A stretch of 46,003 nucleotides of DNA. Origin: Clostridia bacterium. GTDB lineage: Bacteria; Bacillota; Clostridia; Christensenellales; Aristaeellaceae. Within the stretch, counting starts at the first letter, position 1. The number at the start of each line of letters is the position of its first letter. The stretch lies in the NCBI GenBank assembly GCA_017547805.1, contig JAFYOR010000082.1:1-46003 (forward strand), read 5' to 3'. Below are positions 13,586 through 37,378 of the stretch, piece after piece. Below the pieces are notes generated by a model. That model did no database searches, was not told the DNA's origin, and was given only the letters and a program-made list of their open reading frames with translations. The translations under genes were made by a program, and so were the position numbers.

Positions 13586-15220
13586 GTGTACGAAGAAAAG
13601 ATGGAACGCATCTGTGCGCTCCTTTGCCTTTTGAGCGCAATAGAGTCTGCTCAGGATGATCCTGCCCCCCTGAACAGGCGCAGGGTTCACGCTATGCTGC
13701 GCGCAGGCGCGCTTGAAGGGCTTGTCCTCAGAAAGGTGAAGGGCCTGTCGGCGCAGACGTTTGCGCGCGCACAGAAGCTGCTTTCGCGTGCTTCTGCGGT
13801 TTTTGCGCGTGTACAGGCGTATCATGCGCAGGGATACCGCATTCTTTTGGAAGGCGATGCCTGTTGGCCGTCTCAGCTTGAGAAGCTTGGGGATGACCGT
13901 CCGCTGTATCTTTTTGCCAGAGGTAACCTGTCTTTGCTTGAAGGAAAAAAGGCGGCTGTTGCCGGAAGCCGCGAGATTTCCGGCGCAACGCGGGAAAAGG
14001 CGGAGGCGGTCGGGCGATGCCTTGCGCGCAATGGACTGGTGCTTGTCAGCGGCGGCGCGTGGGGCGTGGACAGCGCTGCAGCGAAGGCTGCGCTGTCCAT
14101 GGGCGGCGGCGTAATCGTGGTTCCTGCGATGAGCGCTGACGATTTCTTCCGATACGAAAAAAACTGCAGGGATTGTGAGAAGGGTAGGCTGCTTCTTCTT
14201 TGCGAAACGCCGCCGGACGAGCCTTTTTCTGCGGAAAAAGCGCTTACGCGCAACCGTACGATTTATGCGCTGGGCGACGCGGCGATGGTCGTCGCGGCGA
14301 GAAGCAGAATCGGCGGCAGCTGGTCAGGCGCGTATACTTGCCTGAAGCGCAGCCTCAGTCCACTGTATATTCTGGATGAAGAGGGACGGGAATTTGAAGG
14401 CAATGCCGCGCTGATTGCGATGGGCGCCAGGCGTATGCAGATCCTCCGGGACGCAGAGCGGGAAGAACTGATCCTGCAGGAACCGGATGAGATATTCTTA
14501 GACCGTCTTCGCGAGAGGCAGAGTAAGCCGACGCTGCTGCGCATTTCTGTGCCGATTGAGTCGATCCCGCGCAGCGAGCTGCTCCGCTGTCTTGGGTGGC
14601 GGGGACAGACGCTGGATGAACAGGTGCTGTCGCAGATTGAAAAGGCGGAGCAGATGGCGCTTGAATGTATCGAGCCGGTCGCCATGATTGGTGAATTTGA
14701 GCTTGAAAACGTCGGGGTGCTTTCGGGTACCGGTTTTAAGCCCGAGGGAGAAGCCGCGGCGCTCCTGCTTGACGGCTGTCAAGGGGCAGCGCTGATGGCG
14801 GTGACGCTCGGTGCGAAAAGCGAGCGACTGTTCCTTCGCGTTCAGGCGACGGATAAGGCGCTTGCGCCGGTTCTGGATGCGGCGCTCAGCGCTGCGGTGG
14901 AAGCGGCGGCGGACAGGGTGAGCGAGATCATCAGCCAGCGCGCCGGCGAAAGAGGAAGGCAGACAACCGGACGATTCTCACCGGGATATGGCGATATGCC
15001 GATGAAGCAGACGGGCGAAATGCTGGACGTGCTGCGCTCGGCGGAGCGAATCGGCTTGACTGTGTCCTCAAGCGGGCTGATGATGCCCAGAAAATCGGTT
15101 TGTGCGATCATAGGCGAAGGAACAAACATCAAAGGAAATACAAAAAACGGATGCGCATTTTGTACGCGCCGGGATAGCTGCCGGGACAAGGGAATGTGTG
15201 CATGCGCGGCGGAGGAATGA
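13586..15220 (+). CDS. DprA-like SLOG domain fused to MetH reactivation domain
   Basis: This 544-residue protein joins two parts. Residues about 85-265 resemble the DprA/Smf Rossmann (SLOG) domain: DACWPSQLEKL, VAGSR, SGGAWGVD at 155-162 (usually SGGARGID), TRNRTI at 221-226 and GGSWSGAY. The DprA winged-helix C-terminus is absent. Residues about 318-512 match the B12-dependent methionine synthase activation domain: ELLRCLGWRGQ, VTLGA, RFSPGYGD at 463-470 and MPRKSV. A Cys cluster follows (C523, C526, C532, C538, C540). The next gene is a MetH lacking exactly this domain, so the C-terminal half probably re-methylates inactive cob(II)alamin in trans. The role of the SLOG half is unknown. The GTG start has GAGGGGGG 6 nt upstream. 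No internal stop, ribosome site or start separates the parts. Confidence 0.88.
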   Translation: MYEEKMERICALLCLLSAIESAQDDPAPLNRRRVHAMLRAGALEGLVLRKVKGLSAQTFARAQKLLSRASAVFARVQAYHAQGYRILLEGDACWPSQLEKLGDDRPLYLFARGNLSLLEGKKAAVAGSREISGATREKAEAVGRCLARNGLVLVSGGAWGVDSAAAKAALSMGGGVIVVPAMSADDFFRYEKNCRDCEKGRLLLLCETPPDEPFSAEKALTRNRTIYALGDAAMVVAARSRIGGSWSGAYTCLKRSLSPLYILDEEGREFEGNAALIAMGARRMQILRDAEREELILQEPDEIFLDRLRERQSKPTLLRISVPIESIPRSELLRCLGWRGQTLDEQVLSQIEKAEQMALECIEPVAMIGEFELENVGVLSGTGFKPEGEAAALLLDGCQGAALMAVTLGAKSERLFLRVQATDKALAPVLDAALSAAVEAAADRVSEIISQRAGERGRQTTGRFSPGYGDMPMKQTGEMLDVLRSAERIGLTVSSSGLMMPRKSVCAIIGEGTNIKGNTKNGCAFCTRRDSCRDKGMCACAAEE

Positions 15221-15223
15221 ACG

Positions 15224-17572
15224 ATGGCTACTAAAGAGATCACGATACTGGACGGTGCAATGGGCACCATGCTGCAAAAGTCGGGGCTGCGCCTTGGGCA
15301 GAGGCCGGAAACGCTCTGCATCAGCGCGCCGGAAACGGTCTTAAGCATTCATCGCGCCTATGTCGACGCCGGCGCGCAGATGATTCTATCCAACACATTC
15401 TGCGCCAATGCGCACAAGCTTGACGGAACCGGCTTTGCGGTTTCGGAAGTTGTGCGCGCTGCGGTGCGTACGGCGAAGAGGGCCTGTGAGGGCAGCGAAT
15501 GCCGGGTTGCGCTTGATATCGGTCCGATTGGCGAACTTCTTGAACCGCTGGGAACGCTGAGTTTTGATAAGGCGTATGCGCTGTTCAGGGAAATGATTGC
15601 TGCTGGCTGCGAGGCGGGTGCGGACGCCATTTTCTTTGAGACATTTTCAGACCTGAACGAGCTGCGCGCGGGCGTGCTGGCAGCGAAGGAAAGCTGCGAT
15701 TTGCCTGTTTTCGCGTCCATGACGTTTGAAGCGAGCGGCAGGACGTTCCTTGGATGTCGGGCGGATGCGGCGGCGATGGCGCTGACGGCGCTTGGCGTGA
15801 GTGCGGTGGGCGTCAACTGTTCGCTCGGGCCGGTTGAAGTTACTCCGATTCTCGCGTCGATGCGCAAGGTTACGGATCTGCCGCTGATCCTGAAGCCCAA
15901 TGCCGGTCTTCCGGATCCGCAGACAGGCGCATATGACATGACGCCGTCTGCGTTTGCAGCGGCCTGCTTGAAGCTTCTTGATCTGGGCGCGGTATTTGTC
16001 GGCGGCTGCTGCGGAACAACGCCGGAATTCATCCGTGCACTGAAAGATACGCTTGGCGGGAAACTGGTCAGCTGGGAAGGAAAGCGGCTGCCCGGCGTCT
16101 GCTCCGCGCATCAGGTGTGCGCATTCGGCGGCATCCGGGTTATTGGCGAGCGGATCAATCCGACGGGTAAAAAGCGCTTTGCACAGGCGCTGAAGGAGAA
16201 CGATCTTGGCTATATCGTCGCGCAGGCGATCGAGCAGCAGGACGCTGGCGCGCAGATTCTGGATATCAATGTCGGCCTTCCGGGAATCGATGAGGCGGCG
16301 ATGATGAAAAAGGTCGTTACCGCTGTCAGCGGCGTGTGCGATCTGCCGCTGCAGATTGACTCGTCCAGTCCGCATGTAATCGAGGCGGGTTTACGCGCTG
16401 CGCCCGGAAAATGCCTGATTAACAGCGTGAATGCCACGAAGGAATCGCTTGACGCCGTGCTGCCGCTGGCGAAAAAATACGGCGCGGCGATTGTCGGTCT
16501 TACCCTGGGCGAAAACGGTCTTCCTGTCAGCGCGAAAGAGCGCGTGGAGCTCGCCGGACGGATTATCCGCTCGGCGCAGGAGGCGGGCATTCCGACAGAG
16601 GATATCGCCATCGATTGCCTGACGCTGACGGTGTCCGCGCAGCAGGATCAGGCGCGTGCAACGCTTGATGCGGTGACAAGGGTGCGCAGGGAATACGGAG
16701 TTGAAACCGTGTTGGGCGTGTCCAACATCTCTTTCGGCCTCCCGCAGCGGCAGCATGTGACGCAGGCGTTCCTGACGCAGGCGCTCTGCTGCGGATTGAC
16801 GCTGCCCATCGTCAATCCCAACAACGAGGAAGTGATGAATGCAATTTCCGCCTGCCGTGTGCTTAGCGGCGAAGACGGTGGATGCATGCAGTATATTGCG
16901 CGCCATGCGCAAAAAAAGGAAGCGGCGGTTTCTTCCGCGGCTGCATCCGTTCAGGTCACCATCGGGGAAGCGATTGAAAAGGGACTCAGGCGGGAGGCGG
17001 GGGAACTTGCCCGCGAACTGCTGAAAACGAGAGACCCGCTTGAACTGGTGGAGCAGGAACTGATACCGGCGCTGGACCGCGTCGGCGTGGCATATGACCG
17101 TCAGGAGGTTTTCCTGCCGCAGCTGATGAATGCGGCTGCCGCTTCCGGCGCCGCGTTTGAGGAAGTGAAGAAGGTCATCGCAAACAGCGGTCAATCCGAA
17201 CGCGAACGCGGCGTCATCATTCTTGCAACTGTGGAAGGCGATATTCACGACATCGGCAAAAACATCGTGGGCACGGTGCTTGAAAACTACGGCTACCGTG
17301 TGATTGATCTGGGGCGAGATGTCAAGGCGGAGCGCGTGGTTGAGGCGGCCAAAGCACATCATGCGGACATGGTCGGCCTTTCTGCGCTGATGACGACGAC
17401 TGTTCCCGGCATGGAGAGAACGATTCTTGCGCTGCGCAGCGCAGGCGTTCATGTGCCGGTCATCGTCGGCGGTGCGGTGCTTACAGAGGAATACGCGGCG
17501 AGAATCGGCGCTGATTACTATGCGAAGGACGCCAAGCAATGCGCGGACATTGCCCGCAGCGTGCTGGGATAA
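15224..17572 (+). CDS. metH: Cobalamin-dependent methionine synthase, lacking reactivation domain
   Basis: The enzyme methylates homocysteine with methyl-THF through cobalamin. The 782 residues hold, in order, a homocysteine-binding barrel (about 1-285; zinc ligands in VNCSLG and GGCCGTTPE), a pterin-binding barrel (about 305-560; VIGERINPTG, DINVGLPG), the cobalamin cap (about 570-655) and the B12 Rossmann domain with GDIHDIGKN, whose His coordinates cobalt. The chain stops after the B12 domain, whereas E. coli MetH has about 1227 residues including the AdoMet reactivation domain. That domain is on the protein just upstream. GGAGGA precedes the ATG, which lies 3 bases after the upstream stop. 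Confidence 0.93.
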   Translation: MATKEITILDGAMGTMLQKSGLRLGQRPETLCISAPETVLSIHRAYVDAGAQMILSNTFCANAHKLDGTGFAVSEVVRAAVRTAKRACEGSECRVALDIGPIGELLEPLGTLSFDKAYALFREMIAAGCEAGADAIFFETFSDLNELRAGVLAAKESCDLPVFASMTFEASGRTFLGCRADAAAMALTALGVSAVGVNCSLGPVEVTPILASMRKVTDLPLILKPNAGLPDPQTGAYDMTPSAFAAACLKLLDLGAVFVGGCCGTTPEFIRALKDTLGGKLVSWEGKRLPGVCSAHQVCAFGGIRVIGERINPTGKKRFAQALKENDLGYIVAQAIEQQDAGAQILDINVGLPGIDEAAMMKKVVTAVSGVCDLPLQIDSSSPHVIEAGLRAAPGKCLINSVNATKESLDAVLPLAKKYGAAIVGLTLGENGLPVSAKERVELAGRIIRSAQEAGIPTEDIAIDCLTLTVSAQQDQARATLDAVTRVRREYGVETVLGVSNISFGLPQRQHVTQAFLTQALCCGLTLPIVNPNNEEVMNAISACRVLSGEDGGCMQYIARHAQKKEAAVSSAAASVQVTIGEAIEKGLRREAGELARELLKTRDPLELVEQELIPALDRVGVAYDRQEVFLPQLMNAAAASGAAFEEVKKVIANSGQSERERGVIILATVEGDIHDIGKNIVGTVLENYGYRVIDLGRDVKAERVVEAAKAHHADMVGLSALMTTTVPGMERTILALRSAGVHVPVIVGGAVLTEEYAARIGADYYAKDAKQCADIARSVLG

Positions 17573-17586
17573 GGCAGGAACGCGGG

Positions 17587-19371
17587 ATGACAAAACGAGA
17601 ACAAATGAAAAGGGCGCTTTCCAAAGGCGTTCTGCTCTTTGACGGAGCAACGGGAACGTATGCCAAAATGCTCTCCGGTTTTCCGGAAGGACCGGTTGAG
17701 CAGGCATGCCTGACCGCGCCGCAGCGTGTTACTGCGCTGCATAAGGCATATCTTGACGCCGGCGCGGCAATGATCAAGACGAATACGTTTGCCGCGCATC
17801 CCGGCATGGCGGCAGAGGATGAAAAGCAGCAAAGTGGAATCATCCGGGCGGCATACGCGCTTGCAAAGCAAGCGGCAGAGGAATACCATGCGCATGTGTT
17901 TGCAGATATCGGTCCTGCCTTGCATGGAGAGGATCCGGCTGCTGCCTATTGCCGGATGGCGAATGAATTCCTGTCAGCCGGTGCGGATTGCTTTTTGTTT
18001 GAGACGCTGCCCGATGATAAGGGCATCCGCGAAGCGGCAGCCTGTATCCGGGCGGTCAGACCGGATGCGTTCATCGCAGTTTGTTTTGCAGCCGGTCCGG
18101 ATGGATATACGAGAACGGGAGAATCGGTTCAGATCCTCCTGCGCGGTATGGACGAATGCGCGGACATTGACGCGGTGGGACTCAATTGCATCTGCGGCGC
18201 ATACCACATGCGCAGTCTGCTGGAAAGACTGGACGGCACCAGAAAGACTCTCATCGCCATGCCCAATGCTGGTTATCCGCATCTGGTTGACGGGCGTCTG
18301 TATTATGACAGCGATCCCGCGTATTTTGCTGAACAGACGGCGGGCTGCATCGCATCCGGCGCGGGGATCGTCGGCGGATGCTGCGGCACGACGCCGGCGC
18401 ACATTGCGATGCTATCAAAACTGATCGCACACAGCGGCGTAGAGAAGGAAGAACAGCAGAGCGAAGCGGCGAGCGTAAAGAACGACTGCGGCAGCAAAAT
18501 TCTCAGAAAACTGCGCGCAGGGGAAAAGCCCATCCTTGTTGAGGTGGATCCGCCGCGAAGCGCGCAGATCGGCGGCTTTATTGACGGCGCAAAGCGGCTT
18601 GTTTCTCAGGGGGCGGATGCCATCACCATCGCCGATTGTCCGATTGGACGCGCGAGAATGGATTCAAGCATTCTGGCTTGCAAACTGACACGGGAATACG
18701 GCATTGAAACGATACCGCACATGACCTGCAGGGACAGGAACATCAACGCGACAAAGGCGCTGCTGCTGGGGCTTTCCATGGAAGGCGTAAGAAACGTGCT
18801 CGTCGTTACGGGCGATCCTGTGCCATCCGGCGACAGGGAAAGCGTAAAAGGCGTTTTTCAGTTCAATTCAGGCGTTCTGGCGCGCTTTGTCACCAGCCTT
18901 TGCGCAAGCGGCGAGGCGGAAGCATTCTTTTTGTGCGGCGCTTTGAACGTTAATGCGCAAAACTTCGATGCGGAGCTTAAGCGCGCGCTGCGAAAAGAAG
19001 CTGATGGCGTACAGGCTTTCCTGACACAGCCTGTGCTCAGCGAACGGGCGGCAGATAATCTGCGCCGTGCGCGGGAAGTGCTTGGAGGATATCTGTTTGG
19101 CGGACTGTTCCCCATCGTCAGCAGGAAGAATGCGCTGTTCATGGCCAGCGAAGTGGCAGGTATCGAGCTGGATGAACGGATTGCGCCTGCCTATGACGGG
19201 CTCAGCCGGGAACAAGGGGAAGCCATGGCGATCCGGCTGTGTATGGATGCAGCTGAAAAGATCCGCCCGTACGTTGACGGGTATTACATCATGACGCCGT
19301 TTCAGCGTTTCAATCTCGTTGCGGAACTGACCAGACGGCTCAAAGCACAGGAAGAGCATGCGGCTGAATAA
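17587..19371 (+). CDS. Bifunctional homocysteine S-methyltransferase/5,10-methylene-THF reductase
   Basis: The 594-residue protein fuses a homocysteine methyltransferase barrel (about 1-285; LFDGATGT, zinc motif GGCCGTTPAH) to a methylenetetrahydrofolate reductase (about 305-594; ILVEVDPPR, VTGDP, FLTQPVL, GLFPIVSRKN). This is the architecture of Bacillus YitJ. The reductase makes methyl-THF, the methyl donor MetH uses, and the first domain can methylate homocysteine itself from another donor. The ATG at 17587 lies 14 bases after metH; its ribosome site (AGGA) is modest. The pair therefore supplies and consumes methyl groups in one operon, which ends at a strong terminator. Confidence 0.92.
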   Translation: MTKREQMKRALSKGVLLFDGATGTYAKMLSGFPEGPVEQACLTAPQRVTALHKAYLDAGAAMIKTNTFAAHPGMAAEDEKQQSGIIRAAYALAKQAAEEYHAHVFADIGPALHGEDPAAAYCRMANEFLSAGADCFLFETLPDDKGIREAAACIRAVRPDAFIAVCFAAGPDGYTRTGESVQILLRGMDECADIDAVGLNCICGAYHMRSLLERLDGTRKTLIAMPNAGYPHLVDGRLYYDSDPAYFAEQTAGCIASGAGIVGGCCGTTPAHIAMLSKLIAHSGVEKEEQQSEAASVKNDCGSKILRKLRAGEKPILVEVDPPRSAQIGGFIDGAKRLVSQGADAITIADCPIGRARMDSSILACKLTREYGIETIPHMTCRDRNINATKALLLGLSMEGVRNVLVVTGDPVPSGDRESVKGVFQFNSGVLARFVTSLCASGEAEAFFLCGALNVNAQNFDAELKRALRKEADGVQAFLTQPVLSERAADNLRRAREVLGGYLFGGLFPIVSRKNALFMASEVAGIELDERIAPAYDGLSREQGEAMAIRLCMDAAEKIRPYVDGYYIMTPFQRFNLVAELTRRLKAQEEHAAE

Positions 19372-36055: not shown

Positions 36056-36084
36056 TTGCATAGGCTTGACAGGCATGGTATAAT
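36056..36084 (+). promoter_or_regulatory. Promoter of the OLE RNA gene
   Basis: The -35 TTGCAT (36056-36061), a 17-bp spacer and a perfect -10 TATAAT (36079-36084) with TGG directly before it (extended -10). It would start RNA near 36091. A TTGACA at 36065 is too close to the -10 to act as its partner. Confidence 0.75.
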
Positions 36085-36090
36085 TATTCT

Positions 36091-36691
36091 CAGGTGGTGC
36101 AGTATTCTAGTCAGCAAAGTCTGTTCTGAAGACGGGGCTAAAAATCCGTTAAAGGGCATATCGATGAAGTTCCTGGTATTGGCTGCTGACGCCCAGTCGG
36201 GGGTCGATGCTGGGAGTAAGAATTATGGGCGACCGTCAATGGCATGGCGGAGAACGACCCATTTTTCGTGGAGGCATGGCGCGCAAGCGACATGAAAACC
36301 TGCATGGTGGTACAAAAGCTACCTGCAGTGTAGCCTGCCTTGAGTGGGTGCGGCGGATCATGGATCCACGCGCGGCAACCAAAAGCTTACGGAAGCCGAT
36401 GCGATTGCCATGTGAAACCGTGGCTGCAAAAGAGGCTAGGAATGGACCGACGCTGCCGAGGAAAGCTCCTAGACTGTCGATGAGGATATGGCAGAGATTA
36501 CAGTGTGGACTCAGTGGTAATTCGGTCCCACGTTCGGAAACGGCGTGGCGTTTGCTTTCAAGGGAAACCGCTCTTATGGCGACAGGGAGTAGCGAATGGG
36601 GAAATCCTACCGAACCTAAGCCGCAAGGTTTATTTGTCGTATCACCACCTTCTTTTGACAATTTGCCCACGGTTGAATCGTGGGCTTTTTT
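36091..36691 (+). ncRNA. ole: OLE RNA (ornate, large, extremophilic)
   Basis: A stretch of about 600 nt without a credible gene lies between isoprenoid genes (ispA, then DUF212) and a gene for an OapA-like membrane protein followed by dxs, which is the known genomic context of OLE RNA. Its length fits the class (about 600 nt). It has its own promoter and ends in a terminator hairpin (36665-36691). OLE RNA forms a membrane ribonucleoprotein with OapA and is linked to cold, alcohol and Mg2+ stress tolerance. It lacks the RNase P, tmRNA and SRP signatures I know. Family assignment rests mainly on context and size; I could not align it to the consensus. Confidence 0.85.
36665..36691 (+). terminator. 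Intrinsic terminator at the OLE RNA 3' end
   Basis: A 7-bp stem (gcccacg/cgtgggc) with a 7-nt loop is followed by six T. It lies 100 bases before oapA, so oapA must depend on read-through or another start. Confidence 0.88.
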
Positions 36692-36790
36692 ACCTTATTG
36701 CGAATTTTGTGCAGCACAGCGATCTTTGCCATGGCAAAGCTGATCAGCAAGAAGGGAATATGCTGGTTTCAAATAACGGGAGAGAAGAAT

Positions 36791-37378
36791 TTGAGTAGTG
36801 AAAGTACGCTGAGCAAGAAAGAAAAGGCGAAGCAAAACCAAAAACGATGGGTGCTGACGGTTGTCATCCTGTCGTTTGCGCTGTCCATCGTGATGTCGTT
36901 TCTGACCAGTCTGTTTGTGGAGTCGGCCGGACTGTTCGTTGCGCTGCTTGCGCTGATTATGCTGGTGCTGCTGGGCATCATTACGGACATCATCGGCACG
37001 GCGGTTACTTCTGCCGAGGATCAGCCGTTTATTGCCATGGCCTCAAAGCGCATTGCAGGCGCTAAGCAGGCGCTTCGCCTGATCCGCATGGCAGAAAAGG
37101 TTTCCAGCCTGCTCAATGACGTCGTTGGTGATATTGTCGGCATTGTTTCCGGTTCGGCTGGTTCTGTCATCGCGCTTTCGCTGGTGAAGCTTGGCGTTCC
37201 CGGAACGGTTGCTTCGATCCTGATTGCTGCATTCACCTCTGCATTCATGATTGGCGGCAAGGCGTACGGAAAAGGCTTTGCCATAGAGAACAGTTCGAAG
37301 ATTGTCCTGCAGGTTGGCAGGTTGATGGCGCTGTTTGAAATGAAGAAAAGGAAGAAAAAGCGTGCAAATCGAAGATAA
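36791..37378 (+). CDS. oapA: OLE-associated protein OapA-like membrane protein
   Basis: OapA is the membrane protein partner of OLE RNA. The 195-residue product has a basic N-terminus (KKEKAKQNQKRW), hydrophobic helices at about 21-42, 47-70 and 120-155, a DVVGD (residues 110-114) that fits the D-x-x-x-D motif reported for OapA, and a very basic end (KKRKKKRANRR) suited to RNA binding. I chose TTG 36791 because GGGAGAG at 36778-36784 lies 6-7 nt before it. An ATG at 36680 lies inside the OLE terminator. Assignment uses position and these features. Confidence 0.85.
   Translation: MSSESTLSKKEKAKQNQKRWVLTVVILSFALSIVMSFLTSLFVESAGLFVALLALIMLVLLGIITDIIGTAVTSAEDQPFIAMASKRIAGAKQALRLIRMAEKVSSLLNDVVGDIVGIVSGSAGSVIALSLVKLGVPGTVASILIAAFTSAFMIGGKAYGKGFAIENSSKIVLQVGRLMALFEMKKRKKKRANRR

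Follow-up and report, generated by a model that had tools for sequence, protein, structure and literature searches.

A probable lineage-specific fusion of an antitoxin-type SLOG protein to a methionine synthase reactivation protein, within a genus-level linkage to metH

What is a DprA-like domain doing in a protein for the repair of methionine synthase? The question is raised by a window of 46,003 nucleotides (contig JAFYOR010000082.1 of a Clostridia bacterium, family Aristaeellaceae, assembly GCA_017547805.1), in which a single forward-strand reading frame (13586-15220, GTG start, 544 aa, no internal stop) joins a DprA-family SLOG core to a MetH reactivation domain. An original prediction from the letters alone had proposed this two-domain arrangement, and Pfam, phmmer and a profile of 25 stand-alone reactivation proteins all agree with it. 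A full-text search found no paper, genome and transcriptome papers aside, on a DprA-like protein in methionine synthase reactivation.

The DprA-like half (aa 1-283; 13586..14434, + strand) comprises an N-terminal helical part and an SLOG/Rossmann core, and was delimited with PF02481, the PADLOC PsyrA profile, AlphaFold2 and Foldseek. Residues 80-283 matched Pfam DNA_processg_A (PF02481; E 7.9e-34, 117.1 bits) and residues 91-244 matched DprA 3uqz in a phmmer search of the PDB (E 3.5e-15). An AlphaFold2 model of the whole fusion had a pLDDT of at least 90 in each 10-residue block over aa 1-280, and the best Foldseek matches of this modelled half were DprA 3uqz and ShosA 8zva. Structure prediction, which had been suggested for both halves, thus gave a good DprA/ShosA fold for the first but a poor model of the second, for which a mixed alignment is the suspected cause, and the reactivation half consequently rests on sequence.

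The assignment to the DprA family stands, but the half is of the PsyrA/RqlI antitoxin type by profile and tree and not a canonical DprA. Its score with TIGR00732 was 102.3 bits against a cut-off of 191.15, and the 12 canonical DprA rows formed their own side of the tree with support of 100/100. It is not the recombination mediator; that DprA is encoded elsewhere in the window genome, where a stronger DprA match was found (235.2 versus 120 bits). The best PADLOC match was to PsyrA (E 3.8e-52), with ShosA at E 1.8e-24. In a tree rooted by midpoint only, from which L072 was excluded because of its wrong-strand ORF, the half belonged to a metH-linked clade of 14 members (support 100/99) beside 11 PsyrA-type rows (93/81), the two sets being grouped at 100/100 against canonical DprA. 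The PsyrA profile scan of these 11 rows relates to L047 only (E 5.7e-85), the others being labelled by the tree and, for seven, by a PsyrT neighbour. Most PsyrA-type relatives carry a GG[ST]WxGA motif, seen in the alignments as GGSWSGA at aa 243-249 of the fusion protein (14312..14332, +), where the canonical DprA rows are of SGA, SGS, SGG or SGT type. Within its clade the fused half sits on the longest end branch (0.94), which could reflect relaxed constraint.

Passages of PMC4670107 and PMC9122126 describe DprA-like proteins as the antitoxins of the RqlHI, ShosTA and PsyrTA systems. When ten large ORFs beside PsyrA-type genes were picked by size and position, seven matched PsyrT (E below 1e-216) and the other three had no PADLOC match at E 1e-5. 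No full-length match to PsyrT/RqlH, the helicase-PRTase, was found in the 14 genomes that carry the metH-linked subfamily, all of them drafts, and among the 29 genomes of the genus G002 alone gave one. In 27 others the PsyrT match was confined to about the first 375 of 689 positions, as is expected of a general RecQ-type helicase, and G013 had no match. In view of the lack of a full-length PsyrT in these drafts, the metH-linked proteins look like orphans of the PsyrA family. The C-terminal tail Q-[ILVM]-[STND]-[LMF]-[FL] was found in 10 of the 11 PsyrA-type rows (L047, L058, L071, L096, L097, L099 and L110-L113), the eleventh having its end cut by a contig end, in 2 of the 14 metH-linked rows and in 1 of the 12 canonical DprA rows. 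L043 and L051 are cut by contig ends, and the missing tail of L051 is uninformative. We presume a resemblance between the tail of the PsyrA-type rows and a sliding-clamp binding motif.

The second half (aa 322-544; 14549..15217, +) is of the TM0269 type, its GTG at 14549 lying at about the start of the separate genes of relatives. Residues 326-510 matched 1j6r of Thermotoga maritima in a phmmer search of the PDB (E 9e-12), and the profile of 25 stand-alone proteins found the same structure at E 8.5e-29. The match of residues 460-510 to Met_synt_B12 (PF02965; E 5.6e-5, 23.1 bits) falls just under the 25-bit cut-off, and the score is 25.9 bits once the neighbours in frame are included. Within this stretch lies RFSPGYGD (an R-x-S-x-G-Y-x-D motif, aa 463-470; 14972..14995, +), whose R, S, G, Y and D are invariant in the 25 aligned proteins and which aligns with R-x-x-x-G-Y of E. 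coli MetH (1msk), a motif that we take to be the AdoMet site. A terminal Cys cluster, predicted at the outset, is present as C-x2-C-x5-C plus CxC (C523, C526, C532, C538 and C540; 15152..15205, +), but it is general to the stand-alone reactivation proteins aligned: C-x2-C-x4/5-C closes 24 of the 25, and the remaining one ends before the cluster. The 1j6r match ends upstream of the cluster; as a guess, these cysteines might form a metal or Fe-S site particular to MetH repair in clostridia.

The adjacent metH (15224..17572, +) encodes 782 aa with the Pfam domains S-methyl_trans, Pterin_bind, B12-binding_2 and B12-binding. It ends with the last of these and is without the activation domain, as had been noticed originally. 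Reactivation of T. maritima MetH requires TM0269, to go by the title of Huang et al. (2007), cited in PMC7857596, and, according to passages of PMC5764234, other bacteria can have the reactivation domain as a protein of its own. The reactivation half looks, from its sequence, to be an ordinary member of the family of TM0269, the partner of a MetH without that domain. It is very probably this C-terminal half that carries out reactivation, and by analogy with known relatives, the Thermotoga pair TM0268/TM0269 among them, the action in trans that was presumed from the start is likely. Among 40 loci (L033-L072) picked by match to the window protein, metH adjoins the reactivation gene in all 30 that have that gene; it does so too in four class loci (L133-L136), and the pair turned up again in the loci inspected from the order and the class. 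The gene after metH (17539..19371, +) encodes a bifunctional homocysteine S-methyltransferase/MTHFR (NCBIfam NF006396, 540.7 bits against a cut-off of 453) and is likely the next gene of the metH operon. Control of the cluster by a riboswitch was considered and rejected, as neither the window nor 14 loci gave a SAM or cobalamin riboswitch at gathering score. Elsewhere in the window an OLE RNA was matched over its full length (RF01071, 474.9 bits; 36078-36664, +), flanked by ORFs read by eye as ispA-like and dxs-like; the ORF next to it at 36680-37378 may encode the OLE-associated protein.

Relatives of the DprA-like half showed that its place ahead of metH is shared by many genomes of the genus. 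The subfamily, taken at E 3e-110 or better, was found in 14 of 300 family genomes, all of them among the 29 of the genus, the next scores being about 1e-50; in a sample of 396 genomes of the order that score was reached only in the window genome (G000) and G021. Among the carriers, L088 bears the name Candidatus Ventricola intestinavium in its record, and several are entered as coming from animal rectum. The gene closely precedes metH in 13 of the 14, and in 11 of these the reactivation gene stands between the two or is fused. Ten congeners (L033, L034, L035, L036, L037, L038, L040, L041, L043 and L044) have three separate genes, the dprA-like gene first, then the reactivation gene and then metH; the start of the reactivation gene lies anywhere from about 10 bases ahead of the dprA-like stop to about 41 bases beyond it. 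The concern that homologues might always be split and have unrelated neighbours holds for the splitting, but the neighbour is mostly conserved.

The genes upstream of the DprA-like gene vary, with a similar-looking divergent gene in six loci and others elsewhere; those in the window and in L034 we assume to be spoVA-like. With ORFs called mechanically in 11 loci, the nearest upstream one of at least 110 aa was divergent in eight and ran in the same direction as the DprA-like gene in L035, L042 and L045; in L039 there was only a 115-aa ORF and in L037 the ORF lay 1.6 kb away. As the upstream ORF is mostly divergent, the DprA-like gene may open a transcription unit in many of these genomes. In the closest pair of genomes dN/dS was lowest for metH (0.11), with the reactivation gene at 0.18 and the DprA-like gene at 0.21; a more distant pair, in which the reactivation gene was saturated, gave 0.10 for metH and 0.23 for the DprA-like gene. 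The DprA-like gene is thus under purifying selection in one close pair.

The linkage has exceptions. The reactivation gene was not found in G001 (L039) or G013 (L042), where the DprA-like gene lies directly ahead of metH; G012 (L103) has metH, and neither of the other two genes was found; G021 has the DprA-like gene, and neither metH nor the reactivation gene was found. These are drafts with completeness of 76% (G001), 78% (G013), 84% (G012) and 94% (G021), and the PF02965 profile is weak, having also missed the reactivation gene of G002. A RamA-like substitute for the missing reactivation gene was entertained for these genomes and rejected, as PF14574 was not found in the drafts of G001, G012 and G013. 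The window genome itself has a match to this RamA-like domain, RACo_C_ter, at G000:C66:67971-68633, with one inner TGA. The metH of G013 (L042, 6717-9070) is split over two frames at about residue 490, which points to an error or to decay of the gene. Across the 29 genomes metH was present in 13 and absent from 1 of the carriers, versus 10 and 5 of the others, an association that was not significant (one-sided p 0.10, or 0.08 leaving aside G024, where the contig starts within the reactivation gene). In a metH tree, which leaves out L048, L050, L055, L106, L107 and the two-frame L042, the DprA-linked rows did not fall on one side (3 changes) and G012 and G024 were interspersed.

The explanation that accounts best for these observations, and to which we give about an even chance, is that two neighbours in the metH cluster of the genus have fused, the DprA-like part being an accessory subunit and the C-terminal part the reactivator. 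An SLOG protein of PsyrA/RqlI type, without a PsyrT helicase partner, would have come to sit ahead of metH, and a lineage-specific fusion would then have joined it to the reactivation gene next to it. When the cobalamin of MetH is oxidised to cob(II)alamin, the TM0269-type half, with AdoMet bound, would dock on the B12 domain of the separate MetH, whose cofactor would be reduced and remethylated. The DprA-like half would most likely serve this methionine-synthase machinery as a ligand-binding or docking subunit, which the fusion would fix to the reactivation protein in a ratio of 1:1. Any action of the DprA-like half on MetH is an inference, and the case for a working link between the two is about evenly balanced.

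The strongest rival, which we consider rather less probable and yet a serious contender, is that the DprA-like protein is a passenger, an orphan of PsyrA type with a DNA- or nucleotide-related job of its own, and that its fusion was a neutral accident in one lineage. The exceptional genomes fit such an account, G021 with neither metH nor the reactivation gene found and G001 and G013 with no reactivation gene found, as do the weak co-occurrence of the subfamily with metH, the PsyrT helicases among the neighbours of PsyrA-type relatives and the retention of the tail, as QISLF or QLTML, in two of the subfamily. A passenger would not be expected, however, to keep its place in 13 genomes though the genes upstream differ, or to have lost in 12 of 14 members the tail of its PsyrA-type relatives. 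An extension of the preferred reading, in which an antitoxin-type SLOG protein was domesticated at the head of the operon as a subunit or regulator of the cobalamin-dependent methionine synthase and in one species fused to the reactivation domain, which could make methionine and AdoMet supply responsive to DNA or phosphoribosyl stress by way of a nucleotide-like signal, is offered tentatively and is more doubtful than the passenger.

A further rival, which we regard as unlikely, is that the genes are separate here too and that an error of sequencing or assembly has erased a stop codon or altered the frame in the junction. The fusion is known from one draft genome of 113 contigs that is 83% complete, and a single open frame for both halves was found in that genome alone of the 29. 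Near-whole-protein matches in 100 genomes (own genome included) were otherwise limited to G018 and G025, both with internal stops, the remaining matching genomes giving two adjoining frames. No further fused copy was found among 391 class genomes at E 1e-25, so the idea of the fusion as a clostridial feature is not upheld. Used as a lone query against genome contigs, the protein gave no match. Class matches in G938, G795 and G890 appeared to begin at the DprA-like end and continue into the reactivation gene; no DprA-like gene was found at these loci or that of G850 (tblastn E 1e-3, 6-7.5 kb), and no reactivation gene or metH within 9 kb of the DprA-like matches in G685 and G817.

An error at 14500-14550 had been suspected in the original prediction, and the suspicion was well placed insofar as the split relatives stop and restart at about this point, but the junction in the window (aa 284-321; 14435..14548, +) is open and in frame across 38 codons and may be what was once the tail of the DprA-like protein, now translated on into the following gene. 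Its GC3 of 0.69 compares with 0.61-0.68 in the flanking coding parts. Because the two genes lie in different frames in some split congeners, a single indel at this place could be enough to unite them in the assembled sequence, and a common frame alone does not dispose of such an indel. In 9 of the 10 split congeners, and in 21 of 23 examined genes overall, the reactivation gene has a Shine-Dalgarno match of 4 nt or more ahead of it, whereas none precedes GTG 14549 or any other in-frame ATG or GTG over aa 271-350. The measure is crude, since a chance match was seen at 21% of 193 internal start-like codons, and some rare CTG, ATT and ATA codons near the junction do have a 4-nt match, as an artefact would allow. 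The second gene seems, unlike those of the congeners, to have been stripped of its own initiation signal, and this favours a true fusion and disfavours the artefact.

Improbable as well, to a similar degree, is the gating suggested originally, by which the SLOG half would bind a nucleotide or cofactor and switch the attached reactivation domain on or off: the half is fused to the reactivation gene and adjoins it in relatives, and LOG proteins solved with AMP are among its weaker structural matches (5zbk, E 6.1e-5; 5zbl, E 9.8e-4), but the DprA-like gene also occurs in G001, G013 and G021, where no reactivation gene was found, which is some evidence against any role in gating or reactivation, and with 13 of the 14 subfamily members unfused gating would have to work in trans.

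What has been found is a lineage-specific fusion set within a broader association, at genus level, of metH with an antitoxin-type SLOG protein; it is smaller than it first looked as a fusion and more interesting as gene order. If the link is functional, a DprA-like protein of antitoxin type has been recruited into core metabolism, and the fusion found in nature points to its partner, something difficult to predict for an orphan SLOG protein. The more enduring puzzle is the retention, in many species of the genus, of an antitoxin-like gene just ahead of metH.

Among known systems, canonical DprA/Smf shares the SLOG core with its G[ST]R, SGxAxGxD and RN motifs, but the window protein is below the TIGR00732 cut-off and falls in a separate tree group, and its genome has a stronger DprA elsewhere. 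ShosA (8zva, 9vzo) is a DprA-like antitoxin with a structural match to the modelled half at E 1.6e-14, but its profile match is weaker than that of PsyrA. PsyrA and RqlI come closest in profile, share the same side of the tree and the GG[ST]WxGA motif, and differ in that the window protein is without the tail, is linked to metH and belongs to a subfamily whose 14 genomes gave no full-length PsyrT. A C-terminal HTH is described for RqlI in a passage of PMC4670107, whereas no Pfam HTH was found in the window protein, L036, L039 or the PsyrA-type L047; as L047 is also without it, this absence does not separate metH-linked from PsyrA-type proteins. For the other half the counterpart is TM0269 (1j6r), with which it shares the family over aa 326-510, the R-x-S-x-G-Y motif and a gene beside a MetH without the domain. 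It differs in that the 1j6r chain, of 214 aa, lacks a DprA-like part, that its match stops before the Cys cluster and that, judging by the paper's title, TM0269 lies downstream of its MetH (TM0268), whereas the reactivation gene of the window lies upstream of metH.
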